Assembly: GCF_030506305.1 (NCBI RefSeq) | Contig: NZ_CP119421.1 | Location: 5,100,501 to 5,164,500 of the forward strand | DNA length: 64,000 nt | Direction of reading: 5' to 3' | Source: Porifericola rhodea | GTDB taxonomy: Bacteria > Bacteroidota > Bacteroidia > Cytophagales > Cyclobacteriaceae | Program-made: the position numbers and the translations under genes | Notes under the pieces: model-generated | What the model was told of the DNA's origin: nothing | What the model saw: only the letters and a program-made list of their open reading frames with translations | The model's database searches: none | Shown: one piece after another, positions 27,554 to 35,809 of the stretch | How positions within the stretch are numbered: position 1 is the first letter of the stretch | Layout of the letters: every line of letters begins with the position of its first letter

Positions 27554-28459
27554 ATGAAACCAAAACATATCACCTTTTTAGATAATATTTTAGCATCTTT
27601 GCTTACTACTTTTAAAGTGCTGCTGCTAAGTAAATTCTTTCTAAAAAGGATAAAAAACCAAAGCCCTTACCAAGACTGTGTAATCCTGGGTAATGGACCT
27701 TCTCTAAAAAAATTTTTAAAAGAGGATTTGTCTTTTCTGGAAAACAAAGTAGTTTTTTGCGTTAACAATTTTGTAAGAACTCATGCCTATCAGATTGTAA
27801 AACCGAACTACTATGTTATTGTTGCTCCAGATTTTTGGGCAAAGGAAGAGAAACCAGGCTGGAAAGAAGAGAGGTATAAAATATTTTATGAGTTGGTAGA
27901 GAAGACTGAATGGGAACTAACCCTTTTTGTACCAGTACTAGCCAGGAAACACCAAAGCTGGAAGAATATTCTAAGCAAGAACGCTAAAATTAATATTGCA
28001 TATTTTAACAACACACCTGTAGAGGGGCTCACCTGTTTGAGCCATTGGTACTTCCGTCAGTGGTTAGGCATGCCACGTCCGCATAATGTACTGGTAGGCA
28101 CCCTGACCCTTGCCCTGAATATGGGATTTAAGAACTGTTTTATTACTGGTGCGGATCACTCCTGGCTACAAGAAATTATCGTTTCAGACGATAATAAAGT
28201 ATACCTAAGCCAAAAACATTTTTATGACGACCACCTTAAATCAAAAACCTATACCGATGAGGCTAGGCCCATGTATGTAGGGAGTACCCGTAAAGAGCGC
28301 AGGCTTCATGAAATTCTGCATAAGTTTTACTATTCTTTCCGATCGTACTGGGAATTAAAAGAATACGCAAAAGCACAAAAAACAAATATTTACAACCTGA
28401 CACCGGGTTCCTATATTGATGCGTTTGACCGGCTAACACTTAAAGAAACTAATGGCTAA
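27554..28459 (+). CDS. GNGPSL-motif Rossmann-type protein, candidate nonulosonate (sialyl) transferase
   Basis: The 301-residue protein has CVILGNGPSLKKFL near residue 36, NNFVRTHAYQIVKPNYYVI after it, and TLALNMGFKNCFITGADHSW with a following HFYDDH in the second half. This combination resembles the MptE/MAF_flag10 (DUF115) group and the bacterial GT42 sialyltransferases, both of which share GNGPSL near the N-terminus and a G-x-D/H segment later. The gene sits in a cluster that also has NeuB- and NeuA-like enzymes, so a glycosyltransferase using CMP-nonulosonate is attractive. That is inference; the family is often annotated only as pterin-kinase-like. It overlaps the next gene by 8 bases. 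Confidence 0.65.
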   Translation: MKPKHITFLDNILASLLTTFKVLLLSKFFLKRIKNQSPYQDCVILGNGPSLKKFLKEDLSFLENKVVFCVNNFVRTHAYQIVKPNYYVIVAPDFWAKEEKPGWKEERYKIFYELVEKTEWELTLFVPVLARKHQSWKNILSKNAKINIAYFNNTPVEGLTCLSHWYFRQWLGMPRPHNVLVGTLTLALNMGFKNCFITGADHSWLQEIIVSDDNKVYLSQKHFYDDHLKSKTYTDEARPMYVGSTRKERRLHEILHKFYYSFRSYWELKEYAKAQKTNIYNLTPGSYIDAFDRLTLKETNG

Positions 28460-29003
28460 CCTGCAACTTCGTAAGCATATTAAGCCGACTATTAAAGATA
28501 AACTTCGTATCTGGAATATAAAGAAGCGGCTGGGTAGATGTGGAAAGGGGGTGTTTTTTGAAAAAAATGCATCCTTTATGCGATACCCAAAACTGATTAG
28601 CATCGGTGATCATGTAATTGTTAAAGAAGGGGCAAAAATATGTCCCTGCAACGAACAATCTTCTGTTAGCATTGGTGATAATACAACGATTGGGTATCAT
28701 ACTTACATCTTTGCCTCTCAGCAAATAAGTATTGGTAATAATTGTCAGATTGCTCCCTTTGTATACCTAGTTGATAGTGACCATGGTATAGCTAAAGATA
28801 CCCTTATGAATCAGCAGCCCAACATTACGGCTCCAATACATATCGGAAATGATGTGTGGATAGCAACAGGAGCAAAAATTTTAAAGGGTGTTACTATACA
28901 TGATGGAGCAGTAATAGCAGCTGGGGCTGTGGTTAAGGAAGATGTACAGCCTTATGAAATTGTAGGTGGTATACCGGCCAAGCATATTTCTTTCAGAGAA
29001 TAG
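28452..29003 (+). CDS. Hexapeptide-repeat acyltransferase
   Basis: The 183-residue protein is a left-handed beta-helix O- or N-acetyltransferase. Hexapeptide turns are visible from about residue 50 (ISIGDHVIVKEG, VSIGDNTTIGYHTYI, ISIGNNCQIAP) to IHIGNDVWIATGAKILKG and IHDGAVIAAGAVVKED. The end, VGGIPAKHI, is the standard acyl-CoA-binding terminus. His in DSDHGI is the likely catalytic base. It probably acetylates a sugar made in this cluster. It overlaps the preceding gene by 8 bases, so the two are translated together. Confidence 0.93.
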   Translation: MANLQLRKHIKPTIKDKLRIWNIKKRLGRCGKGVFFEKNASFMRYPKLISIGDHVIVKEGAKICPCNEQSSVSIGDNTTIGYHTYIFASQQISIGNNCQIAPFVYLVDSDHGIAKDTLMNQQPNITAPIHIGNDVWIATGAKILKGVTIHDGAVIAAGAVVKEDVQPYEIVGGIPAKHISFRE

Positions 29004-29066: not shown

Positions 29067-29771
29067 ATGCGCATTGGTTGCATTATTTTAGCACGGTATA
29101 ATTCTAACAGGCTTCCCGGTAAAGCTCTGATGCAGGTAGGTGCTAAACCGATACTCCTACAAATATATCAGGCCCTTGAGACAATATTTACTAAAGAAAA
29201 AATTGTTGTGGCTACCTCAGACTCTGATACTGACGAGCCTATCGTTTCTTTTTGCAATACACATCAGATCAATTTTTTCCGAGGTAGTCTGGATAATGTG
29301 GCTGAGCGCTTTTATTTGTGCGCTAAATATTATCAGTACGATTTTGCTTTTCGCATTAATGGTGATAACCTGTTTGTAGCCACGGATTGTATACAGGAAA
29401 TGCTTAAGGTAGTTTCTCAAAATCCCTCATATGATTTTTTAAGCAATGTAAAGAACAGAACTTATCCTTTTGGTATGAGTGTAGAATTGGTTAAAATATC
29501 TTTTTATGCGCATTGCCTGCAAAAATTTTTAAATAATTCTCATTACCAGGAGCATGTCACTTTGTATCTGTACGAGCACGAAAACTTGGGTAAACGACAA
29601 TATTTTTACAATCAAACGGTGCCAGAAGCAGAGGGGGCGCACCTGGCTATAGATACTCCTGAAGATTTGAACTTAGCTAAAGCCATTTATTCCCTAATGC
29701 CGGAAGCAGGCAACACACCTGAACTATCAGAACTAATACACTATTATCAGCAAGCAAAAAAAGTAAAATGA
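29067..29771 (+). CDS. SpsF-like cytidylyltransferase-family protein
   Basis: The 234-residue protein has the nucleotidyltransferase start IGCIILARYNSNRLPGKAL, followed by IVVATSDSDTDEPIV, FFRGSLDNVAERFYLCAKYY and FRINGDNLF. These are the marks of the SpsF/CMP-KDO-synthetase-like family. In Bacillus spore-coat and other glycan loci such enzymes sit next to a NeuB/SpsE protein, as here: the stop overlaps the start of the NeuB-like gene by 4 bases. The likely reaction is activation of a keto-sugar acid with CTP. Because a second CMP-synthetase-like domain occurs at 31923-33332, the division of work is unclear. Confidence 0.9.
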   Translation: MRIGCIILARYNSNRLPGKALMQVGAKPILLQIYQALETIFTKEKIVVATSDSDTDEPIVSFCNTHQINFFRGSLDNVAERFYLCAKYYQYDFAFRINGDNLFVATDCIQEMLKVVSQNPSYDFLSNVKNRTYPFGMSVELVKISFYAHCLQKFLNNSHYQEHVTLYLYEHENLGKRQYFYNQTVPEAEGAHLAIDTPEDLNLAKAIYSLMPEAGNTPELSELIHYYQQAKKVK

Positions 29772-30778
29772 ACAGTCCCTGGAACGGAAAATTTGGCCCC
29801 CTACTCATCGCAGAAATTGGTGGAAATCATGAAGGAGATTTTGAGTACGCACTAAAACTTACTGACCTGGCCATAGCGTCAGGTGCCGATTACATCAAGT
29901 ATCAGATGTACAGCGGCGACTCTCTTGTAAGCCGTTTAGAGGGGGCTCAGAGAAATGCTCATTTTAAAAAATTTGAGTTATCTCGGGAGCAGTACATTAG
30001 TCTAGCCAAGAGATGCGAAGCAGCAGGTGCAGGCTTTATGGCTTCTGTCTGGAACCCAGAGTATTTGCATTGGATAGATCCATATATGCCTATTTATAAG
30101 ATAGGCTCAGGTGATCTTACAGCCTATAATGTAATCAAAGCAATAGCAAAGTTAGGGAAGCCTATCATTATATCTACCGGTTTAGCTACTTTACAGGAGG
30201 TTTTAGAAGCAGTAGAATACATACAATCTCTGGATGAACGATATAAGCACCCAGATTACCTGGCCATCTTACAGTGCACTTCCATGTACCCTATCCCCTA
30301 TCAGGATGCTAATCTTTCTGTAATGGAACTCCTTAAACAGTCTACCCAACTTACCGTAGGCTACTCTGATCATACAGAGGGGAGTAAAGCTTTGGAAATA
30401 GCTGCGGCAATGGGAGCAAAAGTATTAGAGTTTCATTTTACAGATAGCAGAGATGGTAAAACTTTTAGAGATCATAAAGTGTCTCTTACCAAAGATGAAG
30501 TGCAGGACTTGGGTAAAAAAATTACTGACATCATATTATTACAGGGTAATGCTCTAAAAAGACCGCTTGAAGTAGAGGGCGACCACAGAACTACATTTCG
30601 TAGAGCAGTATACCCTGCCAGGAATATGGAGGCGGGCACTATCGTTTCGGAGGGTGACCTGATAAGCCTAAGGCCTAACCACGGTATAGATGCTCGCTAT
30701 TTTGATAAAGTAGTTGGTAAAAAGTTAAAAGCAGATGTGCTCGCACATCAAAAATTAGACTGGAACTTATTTGAATAA
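29768..30778 (+). CDS. N-acetylneuraminate synthase-family (NeuB/SpsE-like) enzyme
   Basis: The 336-residue protein has the NeuB TIM barrel (about 1-265), including LLIAEIGGNHEGD, GADYIKYQMYSGDSL, KIGSGDLTAYN, PIIISTGLAT, LQCTSMYP, and VGYSDHTEG with LEFHFT. A C-terminal SAF antifreeze-like domain follows (about 275-336, FRRAVYPARNMEAGTIV). The family condenses phosphoenolpyruvate with a 6-carbon N-acyl aminosugar to give a 9-carbon nonulosonic acid. Metal-binding His and Glu residues are present in the motifs seen. The length is the family norm. It is coupled to the SpsF-like gene by a 4-base overlap. Confidence 0.94.
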   Translation: MNSPWNGKFGPLLIAEIGGNHEGDFEYALKLTDLAIASGADYIKYQMYSGDSLVSRLEGAQRNAHFKKFELSREQYISLAKRCEAAGAGFMASVWNPEYLHWIDPYMPIYKIGSGDLTAYNVIKAIAKLGKPIIISTGLATLQEVLEAVEYIQSLDERYKHPDYLAILQCTSMYPIPYQDANLSVMELLKQSTQLTVGYSDHTEGSKALEIAAAMGAKVLEFHFTDSRDGKTFRDHKVSLTKDEVQDLGKKITDIILLQGNALKRPLEVEGDHRTTFRRAVYPARNMEAGTIVSEGDLISLRPNHGIDARYFDKVVGKKLKADVLAHQKLDWNLFE

Positions 30779-30782
30779 TATT

Positions 30783-31913
30783 ATGGAATGGTTTAGAAAA
30801 GATGCATTAACAATTAAGCATCAGACACAGAGTACTGAGCAGTGGATTAGGGAAAGCAATGGCGAGTTGCAAAGCTTCAAAATAGATACCTATCTGGGGA
30901 AAAAAACAGACCTGCTTTCACTCAAAAAAAACATAGTAGGCAACCTAAAAAAGACCCTGGAATATTTCCAGAAAACTCGTACTGAAGTGTATGCTGAAGC
31001 AGGTGCAGAGATGGTAAAAGAGTGTCCGGTATGCGGTAGCAGTTCAGACAAAGCAGTAAGCCAGCTTAACGTATATGGAGCAAATTACGCGCAGTGCAAG
31101 GCATGCACCCACATCTATGTTTTAAATCGTCCTAACCCTAATGCCATCCATAATTTTTACCTCAGCGATGTAAACTATGCATCTACCTACACAGATAAAA
31201 GTGCTGCTGAATCACGACTTCAGGCAATTGCTGTACCCTGGAGAGACTGGATGGTAAAAGTATTTGAGAAGCAATATGGCCGTAAGCCAGAAAAAATACT
31301 TGATGTAGGCTCGGGTGCAGGACATTTTGTAGAAGCCTGCCGCCGTTCTGGTCTTCAGGCAGATGGCATAGAGCTTAGTGAGTCTAGCCGTAAATTCTCT
31401 AAAGACATTTGGGGTATAGAGTTAGACGGAAATGACTACACTCAGGTATACAATCAATACTCTGGTTATGATGTAGTTACTTTCTGGGGTTTGTTGGAAC
31501 ATACTCCTAACCCTAAAGAGCTTCTAAACGTAAGCCAGTCTATATTTGAAAGTAGCGATGCGGGAATGGTAATTGCCAAATTACCCCGCTGGAACTCCCT
31601 CAGTGGTTTTATTCAGAATATCCTAAACCAAAGCATTGTAAGACACCTGGACCCTATGGGGCATATCAGCTGTTACACAGATGGTTCTGCTGCTGAGGCT
31701 TACTACCAGACAGACTTCTACCCCGTAGCCGCCTGGTACTATGGTATGGATGTTTATGAGCTCTTTATGCAATTAGGACATAAACTGGACCAGTATGAAG
31801 TTCTTACCCAGACCAGTGATGTTCAGTTAAGTCTGCAACAAATGATGGACGAAGCCAAACTATCTGATGGCCTAACTTTAGTAGGGGTTCCCAAAAACAA
31901 ACATAAAGCATAA
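30783..31913 (+). CDS. Zinc-ribbon class I SAM-dependent methyltransferase
   Basis: I take the ATG at 30783, four bases after the NeuB-like stop; an in-frame TTG at 30771 would overlap it. The 376-residue protein has a cysteine motif of the C-methyltransferase type (CPVCG and CKAC about 25 residues later) near residues 80-110, then a Rossmann SAM-binding domain with ILDVGSGAGHFVEACRRSG near residue 175 and an acidic GIELSES loop. TFWGLLEHTPNP is typical of sugar or small-molecule methyltransferases. A role in methylating the glycan or its precursor is inferred from its place in the cluster. Confidence 0.9.
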   Translation: MEWFRKDALTIKHQTQSTEQWIRESNGELQSFKIDTYLGKKTDLLSLKKNIVGNLKKTLEYFQKTRTEVYAEAGAEMVKECPVCGSSSDKAVSQLNVYGANYAQCKACTHIYVLNRPNPNAIHNFYLSDVNYASTYTDKSAAESRLQAIAVPWRDWMVKVFEKQYGRKPEKILDVGSGAGHFVEACRRSGLQADGIELSESSRKFSKDIWGIELDGNDYTQVYNQYSGYDVVTFWGLLEHTPNPKELLNVSQSIFESSDAGMVIAKLPRWNSLSGFIQNILNQSIVRHLDPMGHISCYTDGSAAEAYYQTDFYPVAAWYYGMDVYELFMQLGHKLDQYEVLTQTSDVQLSLQQMMDEAKLSDGLTLVGVPKNKHKA

Positions 31914-31922
31914 TTCATCTCT

Positions 31923-33332
31923 ATGTCAGATGTAGTAAAAGTGATAGACCACGAAGTGCTGGTAACCGTATATATTACCAATTATAATTACGGTAAGTAT
32001 ATCTCCCAGGCAGTAGAAAGTGTGCTTCAACAAACGCTGGATGATTTTGAAATCATTATTATAGACGACGGGTCTACAGACAACTCACGTGAATTAATAG
32101 AAGCTTATGCTGACAACCCTAAAATCAAAGTAATCTTCCAAAAGAATAAAGGGCTTAACGTTACCAATAACATTGCTTTAAGAGTTTCTAACGGCAAGTA
32201 CATCATGCGTTTAGATGCTGATGACTTTCTTGACCATAATGCGTTATTAGTGATGTCCAACGCTTTGGAGCGTGATGATGAGCTAGGTTTGGTATTCCCT
32301 GATTACTACATTACTGATGAAAACGGTACTCCTGAATCTATCCATAAAAGGCATGATTTTGACAAAGAAGTATCGCTTTTAGACCAGGCAGCTCATGGGG
32401 CTTGTACGATGATCCGAACTAGTTTTTTAAAAGAGCTGGGAGGCTATAATGAAGATTACAGCTGTCAGGACGGGTATGAACTCTGGGTGAAGTTTACGGC
32501 ACAGCACAAAGTGTCAAACATTAACACTCCTTTGTTTTATTACCGCCAGCACGGCAACAACCTGACCAAGAACGAAAACCGTATTCTTACCACACGAGCT
32601 ACCATCAACAAAGACTACCTGAAAGAAGATAAGGCAAAATATAATACAGTTGCTGTAATTCCTGTTAGGGATGCCAATGCGGTCAATAACAAGCTTGCTT
32701 TTACCTTACTTGATGACAAAACATTTTTGGAGCACAAGATTGATCAGGCACTGCTCGCAGAAAATATCAAACAGGTAGTGGTAAGCTCTCCTGATGAGAA
32801 AGTAAAACAATTTGTACAGCAAAAATATCAGGATAAAGTCTTCTTTGTAAGCCGACCTACTGAGCAGGCAAGATTAAATGTAGGGCTAGTAGGTACTGTC
32901 AACCATATTTTGACACATAAACATATGGAGGCTTTCAACCCTTCTGCTATAGCTGTCCTCTCAATTGAGTTTCCTTTTGTAGATGCTTTAACATTAGATA
33001 ATGCGATAAATACACTTTATCTTTTTGATTCAGATTCTTTAATTTCTGTACGACCAGATACACATTTATTCTTTCAGCATCACGGTCATGGAATGCAGGC
33101 TATACTAAACCAGGACAAGTTTACCAAACTAGAACGCGAGGCTTTGTTTAAATACACAGGGGGTATATCTGTAACCAAATCTGAGATTTTTAAAAAAGAG
33201 CAGCAGTTTATCTGCGGAAAGGTAGGACATGTTGTAATTGACCAACAGGCTAGTTTAGGAATTTTTAGTGAATACGACCTTAAATTAGCTAGACTCCTGG
33301 CGCAGGATAATCAATCTCAACATAAGTCATGA
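31923..33332 (+). CDS. Family 2 glycosyltransferase fused to a CMP-sialate-synthetase-like domain
   Basis: The 469-residue protein has two domains. Residues about 11-220 are a GT2 fold (VTVYITNYNYGKYISQAVES, IIIDDGSTDNS, MRLDADDFLD with the DXD motif, CQDGYELW). Residues about 241-460 match the cytidylyltransferase layout of NeuA: VAVIPVRDANAVNNK, VVVSSPDEKV, FVSRPTEQAR, VLSIEFPFVDALTLDNAI, DSLISVRP, and a final VIDQQASLGIFSEYDLKLA. The usual IPARGGSKG is changed to IPVRDANAV, so catalysis may be altered or lost. A single chain would make and use a CMP-sugar or bind it. It overlaps the next gene by 4 bases. Confidence 0.82.
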   Translation: MSDVVKVIDHEVLVTVYITNYNYGKYISQAVESVLQQTLDDFEIIIIDDGSTDNSRELIEAYADNPKIKVIFQKNKGLNVTNNIALRVSNGKYIMRLDADDFLDHNALLVMSNALERDDELGLVFPDYYITDENGTPESIHKRHDFDKEVSLLDQAAHGACTMIRTSFLKELGGYNEDYSCQDGYELWVKFTAQHKVSNINTPLFYYRQHGNNLTKNENRILTTRATINKDYLKEDKAKYNTVAVIPVRDANAVNNKLAFTLLDDKTFLEHKIDQALLAENIKQVVVSSPDEKVKQFVQQKYQDKVFFVSRPTEQARLNVGLVGTVNHILTHKHMEAFNPSAIAVLSIEFPFVDALTLDNAINTLYLFDSDSLISVRPDTHLFFQHHGHGMQAILNQDKFTKLEREALFKYTGGISVTKSEIFKKEQQFICGKVGHVVIDQQASLGIFSEYDLKLARLLAQDNQSQHKS

Positions 33333-34309
33333 ACAAGCTGACAGGGAAATCAATACTAGTTACTGGGGGAACAGGCTCATTTGGGCAAGCGCTAATTGGA
33401 CACCTGCTTGGTATTAAGCAATCTTTCTCTTCTATCACCGTTTTCTCTCGCGATGAGTACAAGCAGTACCAGATGCGCAGAAAATACAACGAAGTAACCA
33501 ACCTTCGCTTCATCATTGGTGATGTACGTGATGAAAAGGCCTTAACTGAAGCCTGTCGTAATATTGATGTAGTAATTCATGCCGCTGCACTTAAGCAAAA
33601 TATAAGCGGAGAAGTATATCCTGAAGAGTTTATAAAAACCAATATAGATGGCACACGCAACCTTATCAGAGCTGCTGTGCATGAGCAGGTAGAAAAGGTA
33701 ATAGCCTTATCTACTGATAAGGCAGTATACCCAACCACCCTCTACGGAGCATCTAAGCTAAGTGCTGAAAAGCTATTAGTCGGTGCTAATGAGAAGTATG
33801 CAGATCTTACCCAGTTTGCCATAATAAGACTAGGCAATTTATTTGGCTCCCGTGGTTCGGTTCTGTATGCGCTTAACGAAGATAGTGCTCAGCACGAAGT
33901 CAGAATTACGCAACCTAAAATGAGCCGCTTTAGCCTAAGTATGGAAGAAGGTGTACATTCAGCTCTAAAGGTATTGGAGTGTATGAAAGGCGGAGAAGTA
34001 TTTGTACCAAAAATGTCTGCTTACACCCTAGAAAAGCTGGTAAGGGCTATGGGCTTAAAGCTTGCAAAGCAAGATACAGGACCCAGGCTGACAGAAAAAA
34101 TACACGAGCAGGCTTTGTCATCTGAAGAAGTACGATACACTTTTGAGTGGGAGAATTTTTACATATACCTGAATCCTAATACTCAGCAATACCAACATTG
34201 GAAACAGACAGGAAAAAAACTTCCAGAAACTTTTGAATATCGCTCTGACCTTGCCCCACAGATCAGCATTTCCGACCTGCAACAACAAATCAGCTTTTAC
34301 CTTTCTTAA
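33329..34309 (+). CDS. UDP-N-acetylglucosamine 4,6-dehydratase-like (PseB-type) enzyme
   Basis: The 326-residue protein is an extended short-chain dehydrogenase with ILVTGGTGSFGQAL (NAD-binding, residues 9-22), DVRDEKAL, AALKQ, STDKAVYP and catalytic YGASK. This matches the polysaccharide biosynthesis/PseB group that dehydrates UDP-GlcNAc, and often epimerises C5, to make precursors of pseudaminic or legionaminic acid and other 4-amino sugars. It starts within the last 4 bases of the fused GT2 gene. Together with the NeuB-like gene and the aminotransferase at 35806-36921 it outlines a nonulosonic-acid pathway; the UDP-sugar hydrolase step is not seen in the window. Confidence 0.9.
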   Translation: MNKLTGKSILVTGGTGSFGQALIGHLLGIKQSFSSITVFSRDEYKQYQMRRKYNEVTNLRFIIGDVRDEKALTEACRNIDVVIHAAALKQNISGEVYPEEFIKTNIDGTRNLIRAAVHEQVEKVIALSTDKAVYPTTLYGASKLSAEKLLVGANEKYADLTQFAIIRLGNLFGSRGSVLYALNEDSAQHEVRITQPKMSRFSLSMEEGVHSALKVLECMKGGEVFVPKMSAYTLEKLVRAMGLKLAKQDTGPRLTEKIHEQALSSEEVRYTFEWENFYIYLNPNTQQYQHWKQTGKKLPETFEYRSDLAPQISISDLQQQISFYLS

Positions 34310-34318
34310 CTTACCACT

Positions 34319-35809
34319 GTGGGTATAATTCAACGCCAAACCCTTAAGTCTACCATATACATCTATATAGGTGTGCTGATTGGTTTTGTAACCAGTGCCC
34401 TGGTGTATCCCAAATACCTGACTGAATCTCAGATTGGAGTAATTGGCTTGCTGGTGTCATGGAGTTCTGTATTCGCGCAGGCTGCCACATTAGGCTTTGG
34501 CGGTGCCACAATAAAGTTTTTTCCCTACTTCAGAGATAAAGAGAAACAGCATCATGGCTTTTTCTTTTTGCTTGTAATGGTGGTGCTCAGTGGGTATTTA
34601 TTGTTTCTCGCTATCTTTTTTATCATAAAGCCCTGGATGATTGAAGATGCCGGCGTAGACTCTTTGTTTGCAAAACATATCTATCTGATTATTCCTTTTA
34701 CACTTTTTTCTTTGCTCTTTGTCATTCTGGACATCTACAACCGGGCACTCTATAATGCTACCACTGGCTCCCTTCTCAATGAGACCATCTCTCGCTTGTT
34801 TGTATTGGTTTTAGTCTTCCTTTTTATCTGGGATATCTATCAATTTGACGATTATCTCAACTGGTATGTTATTTCTCGCGGTGTACTGGTTCTGCTACTT
34901 TTGCTTTTTCTGTATTGGAAAGGAGAATTAAGTCTCCGTCCGGATTTTAGCCTGTTAACCAAAGAAAGAAGACAAGGCATGTTGAGTCTTAGTTTATTCA
35001 GCTTGGTTACTGGATTTGGAACGCTGGCTATCATCAGGATTGATAGTATTATGATCAACAGCTTTTATTCAGATGCAGAAGTAGGCGTATACCTGACAAC
35101 TTTTTACTTTGGCACACTGGTTTTATTGCCCTCCAGAGCTCTTAGGGGCATCGCCCCTACCATGATTGCTGATGCATTCAAACATAATAATCTTAAAGTT
35201 GTAGCCAGTATTTATACACAAAGTACTATTACCCAACTAGTTGCAGGCTGCTTTTTCTTTCTCGGCATATGGATAAATATTGATAATGTGTTTGAAATAC
35301 TCCCGGAGTCTTATGAAGCCGGTAAATATGTTATTTTATATGTTGGACTCATGAATATTGTGAAGATGGCTGGAGGAGTAAATGACGTAATTATTGGTTA
35401 TTCTGAATACTATCGCACGAATACCTACATTATGCTGGCCTGGGTAGCATTACTGATACTTAGCAATTACTGGCTACTGCCAATTATGGGAATTAGCGGA
35501 GCGGCACTGGCCTCTTTGCTATCAGTTATTATAGTTAATATAGCAAGATATTTTTTTCTGTATGCCAAATTTGGCTTCCAGCCCTACAAATGGGCTCACC
35601 TCTTTATATTAATTATTGCTTTAGTCACTTATGGCCTGGTAATTTTGGTACCTCCTGCTCAGCACTTTATACTGGATATTCTAATAAAAGGAGTATTAGT
35701 TACAATCATTTTTACCTCTGCTATCTACTTCTCTAATACTGATCCACAGATCAACAAATTAATTGAGGGTTACTTAGATAAAGCTAAGGCGCTAATCAAC
35801 AGGTACTAA
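34319..35809 (+). CDS. Wzx-like polysaccharide flippase (MOP superfamily)
   Basis: The 496-residue protein begins at a GTG (34319) nine bases after the dehydratase stop. It has about 12-14 membrane segments over its whole length, with charged loops and a cytoplasmic N-terminus (MGIIQRQTLKSTIYIYIG). FGTLAIIRIDSIMINSFYSD and PSRALRGIAPTMIADAFKHN are typical of oligosaccharide-unit flippases. It would move the lipid-linked repeat unit across the inner membrane. Its 3' end overlaps the 3' end of the opposite-strand aminotransferase gene by 4 bases. Confidence 0.9.
   Translation: MGIIQRQTLKSTIYIYIGVLIGFVTSALVYPKYLTESQIGVIGLLVSWSSVFAQAATLGFGGATIKFFPYFRDKEKQHHGFFFLLVMVVLSGYLLFLAIFFIIKPWMIEDAGVDSLFAKHIYLIIPFTLFSLLFVILDIYNRALYNATTGSLLNETISRLFVLVLVFLFIWDIYQFDDYLNWYVISRGVLVLLLLLFLYWKGELSLRPDFSLLTKERRQGMLSLSLFSLVTGFGTLAIIRIDSIMINSFYSDAEVGVYLTTFYFGTLVLLPSRALRGIAPTMIADAFKHNNLKVVASIYTQSTITQLVAGCFFFLGIWINIDNVFEILPESYEAGKYVILYVGLMNIVKMAGGVNDVIIGYSEYYRTNTYIMLAWVALLILSNYWLLPIMGISGAALASLLSVIIVNIARYFFLYAKFGFQPYKWAHLFILIIALVTYGLVILVPPAQHFILDILIKGVLVTIIFTSAIYFSNTDPQINKLIEGYLDKAKALINRY

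Follow-up and report, generated by a model that had tools for sequence, protein, structure and literature searches.

The gene at 31923-33332 of the window, the 64,000-nucleotide stretch of Porifericola rhodea DNA analysed here, encodes a single chain in which a GT2-fold glycosyltransferase is followed by a NeuA-type nucleotidyltransferase fold whose catalytic residues are lost, and it belongs to a conserved cassette with an intact SpsF-type cytidylyltransferase and a NeuB-family nonulosonate synthase. We see about an even chance that the carboxy-terminal half (C-domain) is a NeuA-derived pseudoenzyme that holds a ligand for the glycosyltransferase within an SpsF/NeuB nonulosonic-acid (NulO) pathway. 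The gene and its two domains are arranged as follows.

31923..33332, + strand: fusion gene of GT2 and degenerate NeuA-fold domain, ATG start, 469 aa
31962..32573, + strand: GT2 catalytic domain, about residues 14-217 (PF00535, family alignment, Foldseek to GT2 structures)
32643..33299, + strand: NeuA-fold domain, residues 241-459 (TIGR03584, family profile, AlphaFold2 models, VIA-align, hhalign)

The initial annotation had described the protein as a single-chain fusion of a GT2 glycosyltransferase with a CMP-sialate-synthetase-like domain, and this description holds for both halves. In the amino-terminal half PF00535 matches residues 15-172 (E 5.9e-31, 108.1 bits, above the cut-off of 23.3), and the motifs DDGSTDNS, LDADD and QDGYELW are kept across the family alignment; score, DDGS and DxD together place it in GT2. 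A role in transferring sugar from a nucleotide donor is predicted for this half. Profile comparison gave E 1.2e-48 to the chondroitin synthase K4CP and 1.7e-40 to the Leptospira entry 6p61, with which the GT2 half is held in common; no NeuA-fold domain was seen among the matches listed.

Assignment of the second half is less straightforward by Pfam, as PF02348 stays below its cut-off of 22.6 bits both on the full protein (16.4 bits) and on the C-domain alone (19.3 bits). The initial annotation had named the lack of a PF02348 match as evidence against its proposal, and by the Pfam threshold this situation very nearly applies; it is overturned, however, by profile and fold comparison. Among the C-domains of the family 17 of 18 members match PF02348 at E <= 0.1 (best 3.3e-6), and that of locus L040 exceeds the cut-off with 23.3 bits. 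The NCBIfam PseF model TIGR03584 spans residues 243-459 (model positions 1-219 of 222) with E 4.5e-6, its score of 26.4 bits being far under the model cut-off of 205.7. From sequence alone, a profile of 18 C-domain relatives reached the solved NeuA structures 9t4z (1.1e-8) and 6ifd (8.4e-7), and hhalign aligned the fused C-domains with 40 stand-alone NeuA-type proteins over 228 columns (99.9%, E 1.2e-33). AlphaFold2 gave a mean pLDDT of 83.0 and a pTM of 0.81 for the whole chain (18-row family alignment), the corresponding values for the C-domain modelled alone being 79.3 and 0.79; the least confident C-domain stretch in both models, residues ~380-410, is also the one with most of the new invariant residues described below. 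When the predicted C-domain was superimposed with VIA-align, it matched V. cholerae NeuA 6ifd (with CDP and Mg) at Z 25.2 and an rmsd of 2.8 over 208 residues, the CMP-Kdn synthetase 9t4z at Z 24.6 and N. meningitidis NeuA 1eyr at Z 24.1. The second domain is a NeuA-type nucleotidyltransferase fold along its whole length, and the two-domain layout is real. In a midpoint-rooted tree the 19 fused domains form one clade (100/99) among the NeuA-type rows, and the SpsF rows form a separate clade (100/100). An SpsF ancestry of the second domain was rejected on this separation and on the hhalign value of 78% against the SpsF group, as compared with 99.9% for NeuA. Within this relationship the second half of the fusion is divergent.

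When positions with a known role in NeuA are compared, it becomes clear that the catalytic set has been dismantled. For the residue counts 19 fused domains, with L043 and L120 outside, were aligned to 40 stand-alone NeuA-type domains; L039, omitted from alignments A1 and A2 for ambiguous bases, is part of the 19-row counts. Residue roles follow excerpts of PMC6580227 (V. cholerae) and PMC2901514 (N. meningitidis). The positions concerned are these.

32658..32699, + strand: decayed nucleotide loop, residues 246-259, IPVRDANAVNNKLA against IPARGGSKGxxxKN (family alignment, hhalign register)
32853..32855, + strand: R311, corresponding to the cytosine-reading Arg71 of NeuA (role from an excerpt of PMC6580227)
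33078..33095, + strand: family-specific motif HxGxG[ML], residues 386-391, with H386, G388 and G390 in 19/19
33126..33140, + strand: motif [KR]LERE, residues 402-406, K402 aligning with the carboxylate-binding Arg165 (register by hhalign)
33225..33230, + strand: family motif GH, residues 435-436, in 19/19
33258..33266, + strand: GIF, residues 446-448, replacing the metal-binding [DEN]-I-D (Asp209/Asp211), with Gly446 and Phe448 at the Asp positions

Where the NeuA signature reads IPARGGSKG, residues 246-254 read IPVRDANAV, just as the initial annotation had noticed, and of the P-loop set Arg12, Ser15, Lys16, Lys21 and Asn22 solely Arg12 is retained (R249; the window protein has R-D-A-N-A...L-A). 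This loss runs through the family: Lys16 occurs in 0/19 fused vs 38/40 stand-alone domains, Lys21 in 1/19 vs 40/40, Asn22 in 0/19 vs 39/40, Gln104 in 0/19 vs 38/40 and Asp211 in 1/19 vs 39/40. Asp209, absent from all 19 fused domains (Glu in two), is a weak marker, since the stand-alone domains themselves vary at this position (Asp 12, Glu 16, Asn 12 of 40). An independent alignment by hhalign agrees in register at each of these positions, and at Arg12, Arg71 and Arg165 as well. According to excerpts of PMC6580227/PMC2901514, the exchange K21A left the E. coli enzyme inactive, and D211A lowered the kcat of the N. meningitidis enzyme 15,000-fold; taken together with these effects, the residue loss argues that the C-domain has very likely lost CTP chemistry. 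The three marks of an active enzyme, namely a PF02348 score above cut-off, the P-loop and the metal Asp209/Asp211, are all missing from the second domain. The earlier suggestion of altered catalysis or a binding role for this domain proved apt as regards the catalytic residues, which are lost family-wide; binding itself we infer.

Not everything of the old site has disappeared. The phosphate-binding Arg12 and the cytosine-reading Arg71 are each retained in 19/19 fused and 40/40 stand-alone domains, and the Arg165 position is Lys or Arg in 18 of the 19 fused domains, a pattern suggestive of part of the cytosine and carboxylate site having been kept. Arg12 and Arg71 could instead be retained for folding. 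Two observations count against a ligand pocket: the positions Gln104, Asn175 and Tyr179, which shape the sugar site in NeuA, are altered in the fused domains, and the divergent member L120 has Lys at the Arg12 position and an Arg71 region that is only loosely alignable. The family has also acquired invariants of its own, H386, G388, G390, E404, R405, G414, G435 and H436, with E404 and R405 again in 19/19. Compared with NeuA (V. cholerae 6ifd, CMP-Kdn synthetase 9t4z, N. meningitidis 1eyr; PF02348/PseF), the fused domain shares the whole-domain fold, Arg12 and Arg71, but it lacks the catalytic Lys, the ribose Asn, Gln104 and the metal Asp, carries HxGxGM, LERE and GH, and sits behind a GT2 domain.

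The fusion is not a chance event, since 20 distinct loci encode a protein with both domains. A survey of databases, which the initial annotation had proposed, yielded mostly Bacteroidota (15 of the 20 loci), together with one locus each from Bdellovibrionales, Marinimicrobia, Pelagibacteraceae and Rhodobacteraceae and one, L031, from another bacterium. The scan of the genome collection gave 21 loci, of which 12 have both domains and seven (L044-L050) match in GT2 only; L042, the sole shortened copy, was dropped as it ends at a contig edge, and L043, with a canonical loop and a shortened domain, was set apart. The L037 protein is identical to L014/L053 (the G026 copy) and was counted once, and with a divergent member from G496 (L120/L176; E 6.9e-86 to the model of the full family) the total is 20. 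Full-length copies occur in eight of 59 related genomes, own included. Broader draws, which may overlap, found the fusion in the own genome only at the order level (291 genomes, E <= 1e-60, five candidates scored per listed genome) and at the class level (295 genomes, E <= 1e-30), thresholds too strict for members that have diverged as far as the one in G496. At the phylum level (395 genomes, E <= 1e-12) it was found in the own genome and G496; 92 genomes matched, the best 30 loci (own included) and G496 were examined, and the other matches are listed open frames of at most 351 aa, too short for a GT2-NeuA fusion. Spread by phages or plasmids was rejected: tblastn of the C-domain gave no match in either the phage or the plasmid collection, a scan of viral contigs with 55 query-related loci gave no ORF of at least 80 aa matching the C-domain model at E <= 1e-5, and PHROGs gave no match.

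In the window the fusion is embedded in the order acetyltransferase (28452), SpsF (29067), NeuB (29768), methyltransferase (30771), fusion (31923), PseB-like dehydratase (33329) and a gene at 34319 that we take to encode a flippase-like protein. The neighbouring features are the following.

27554..28459, + strand: MptE/PseD-like protein, candidate nonulosonate transferase (PF01973, 34.3 bits, just under the cut-off of 34.6)
28452..29003, + strand: hexapeptide acetyltransferase (PF00132, E 5.3e-19), adjoining SpsF/NeuB at many loci
29067..29771, + strand: SpsF-type cytidylyltransferase with intact P-loop signature (PF02348, E 2.3e-25, 90.1 bits)
29768..30778, + strand: NeuB-family nonulosonate synthase (PF03102, E 1.4e-61; TIGR03569, 252 bits, under the cut-off of 399.65)
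30771..31913, + strand: methyltransferase between NeuB and the fusion (PF13489, E 3.3e-14)
33329-34309: PseB-like dehydratase (TIGR03589, 320.7 bits, under the cut-off of 407.75)

The separate SpsF-like cytidylyltransferase at 29067-29771, already pointed out by the initial annotation, combines a PF02348 match with an intact P-loop. All 15 complete rows retain its signature (R..S....K), the L039 row being shortened by a contig edge. At 17 of the 20 loci the retrieved flank contains an SpsF-type gene (29-66% identical to that of the window at the other loci), and for two flanks without it the gene was found elsewhere in the genome, in L034 (43%) and, at the end of another contig, in L035 (49%). 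The search for SpsF in the L040 genome gave only a 29% match at 4.2e-8, which counts against the pseudoenzyme reading favoured below. NeuB of at least 51% identity is likewise in the flank at 17 of 20 loci; in addition, the L035 contig opens with the tail of a NeuB, in L040 a relative with 30-32% identity lies ~3 kb upstream of the fusion, and L041 has a copy with 45% identity on the contig of its SpsF, ~11 kb away from it. Among the 59 relatives, a close NeuB (E <= 9.6e-122) and a close SpsF (E <= 4.1e-53) are present in all eight genomes with the fusion and in no other, the best matches elsewhere being 2.6e-53 for NeuB and 6.9e-26 for SpsF. These eight genomes share one family and therefore do not represent eight independent events. 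In the own genome PF02348 has three matches at E <= 0.001: L118, the SpsF of the window and L119. Reading their sequences, we regard L118 as KdsB-like and L119 as MobA-like; with this inventory and the intact signature, SpsF and not the fused domain is likely the natural candidate for the CMP-sugar (nonulosonate) synthetase.

At the locus of the divergent member, SpsF and NeuB are one 571-aa protein (L176:10768-12483, - strand) directly upstream of the fusion. This maker-maker fusion is a better candidate for channelling than the GT2-NeuA fusion.

The remainder of the cassette is more variable. The slot between NeuB and the fusion holds a methyltransferase at many loci and a hexapeptide acetyltransferase at L036:7363-7986, L039:1491-2117 and L057:9353-9988, as if sugar decoration were swapped as a module between clusters. 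At the Rhodobacteraceae locus an HAD hydrolase (L041:6637-7961) directly precedes SpsF and the fusion, and NeuB is farther off on the same contig. No match to the PseB-like dehydratase was found by blastp in the flanks of L031, L032, L033, L054, L055, L056 and L057, and the sugar precursor may therefore differ between clusters. MptE/PseD-like genes were detected by blastp at 10 of the 20 loci, window included; the match of the window protein to the PseD model NF050051 is weak. It starts with VILGNGPSLK, which in our view resembles GT42 sialyltransferases and Maf proteins. Further candidate transferases appeared in a Pfam scan of some neighbours, namely polysialyltransferase PF07388 in L036 and L039 and Capsule_synth PF05159 in L057. 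With such other candidates nearby, the GT2 half may be a user of the CMP-sugar or may work on a NulO-bearing chain.

Among the known systems that come close is that of Campylobacter jejuni, where the cgtA/neuA1 product is a single fused chain. An excerpt of PMC7248181 gives cgtA/neuA1 (orf5/10) of the LOS locus as transferase and CMP-sialate synthetase in one gene, and counts Campylobacter NeuA among the genes making sialic acid for LOS. Going by that description, our family differs from this precedent in having a degenerate NeuA half and a separate SpsF that, in the window, lies near the fusion. In a Vibrionaceae/Moritella cluster without NeuA, an excerpt of PMC7371886 proposes an SpsF-type cytidylyltransferase as substitute, and in the window, too, SpsF is the intact enzyme; that of the Vibrionaceae/Moritella cluster is fused to an aldo-keto reductase, whereas the SpsF of the window is free and that of L176 is fused to NeuB. 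Fusions of a NeuA-type domain with an HAD phosphatase were also seen in Bacteroidota (L068:1498-2682, L079:1522-2682 and L088:1507-2658); they share the NeuA-type building block, but their P-loop is largely canonical and they have no GT2 domain. No description of a GT2-pseudo-NeuA family was found in open-licence PubMed Central papers.

From family membership and gene association, NeuB would make an ulosonic acid, which SpsF would activate with CTP to CMP-NulO, and decorating methyl- or acetyltransferases would modify the sugar. The C-domain, very likely devoid of CTP chemistry, has probably retained some of the ancestral ligand pocket, that is the cytosine-reading Arg, one phosphate Arg and a basic residue at the sugar-carboxylate site, and might present the GT2 domain with CMP-NulO or with a chain held at its NulO end. 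The latter would use NulO as donor or work on a NulO-bearing chain; donor and acceptor, like ligand binding by the C-domain, are put forward here as presumptions. We favour this pseudo-cytidylyltransferase because the NeuA fold, the catalytic loss, the remnants at Arg12, Arg71 and the Arg165 position, the new invariants, the intact SpsF, the co-occurrence and the SpsF-NeuB protein of L176 all fit it.

It is possible, though on balance unlikely, that the C-domain acts purely as a scaffold through which the protein dimerises or docks to SpsF, NeuB or the glycan machinery, with no ligand and with channelling through inter-chain contacts. NeuA forms dimers in which the subunits share the active site (excerpt of PMC2901514), divergence is faster in the C-domain, with 25-80% identity to the window protein among 18 other aligned members, than in the GT2 half with 49-90%, and the SpsF-NeuB protein of L176 implies that physical coupling is favoured in the cassette. 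On the other hand, the invariant polar residues H386, E404, R405 and H436 and the kept Arg12 and Arg71 look pocket-like and not like an interface alone. A more specific form of the preferred pseudoenzyme reading, in which the domain is a CMP-nonulosonate docking module that catches the SpsF product and hands it over, making the fusion a GT2-type nonulosonate transferase, seems to us rather doubtful. Equally, we think it improbable that the C-domain has turned to a new reaction through H386, E404, R405 and H436, for example on activated or free NulO. Such a change would account for new residues being invariant in 19/19 while the old catalytic ones are scrambled, and the variable decorating enzymes make a further chemical step plausible; however, among solved structures the structure and profile searches gave no NeuA-fold enzyme with such residues, and the model is weak precisely in the 380-410 stretch.

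The channelling design of the initial annotation, in which one chain would combine a working CMP-sugar synthetase with the enzyme that uses its product, did not find support, and we consider it very improbable. The NeuA fold is correct, Arg12 and Arg71 are kept, and cgtA/neuA1 offers a natural precedent (excerpt of PMC7248181), but with Lys16, Lys21, Asn22, Gln104 and the metal Asp lost from the family, the NeuA half is not competent by motif as a maker-user of that kind would be, and a SpsF with intact P-loop stands next door. A Pelagibacteraceae GT2 fusion, L043:8001-9260, does have a canonical IPARGGSKR (PF02348, 76.7 bits), which speaks for this alternative; yet it lies outside the main clade on a long branch, and its shortened C-domain is without the RRQ region and the Asp211 position. 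That the C-domain has no function left and is decaying, as its faster divergence might suggest, is hardly credible for a full-length domain with invariant residues across several phyla, whose sole shortened copy, L042, is cut by a contig edge.

The fold alone is no ground for calling a protein of this type a CMP-sialate synthetase or a bifunctional maker-user. A pseudoenzyme in which some of a donor pocket survives would offer glycosyltransferases a testable route to donor delivery or regulation. Since the degenerate domain and the transferase occur together with NeuB as the synthase and with SpsF as the active replacement, a few neighbouring genes suffice to test this idea.
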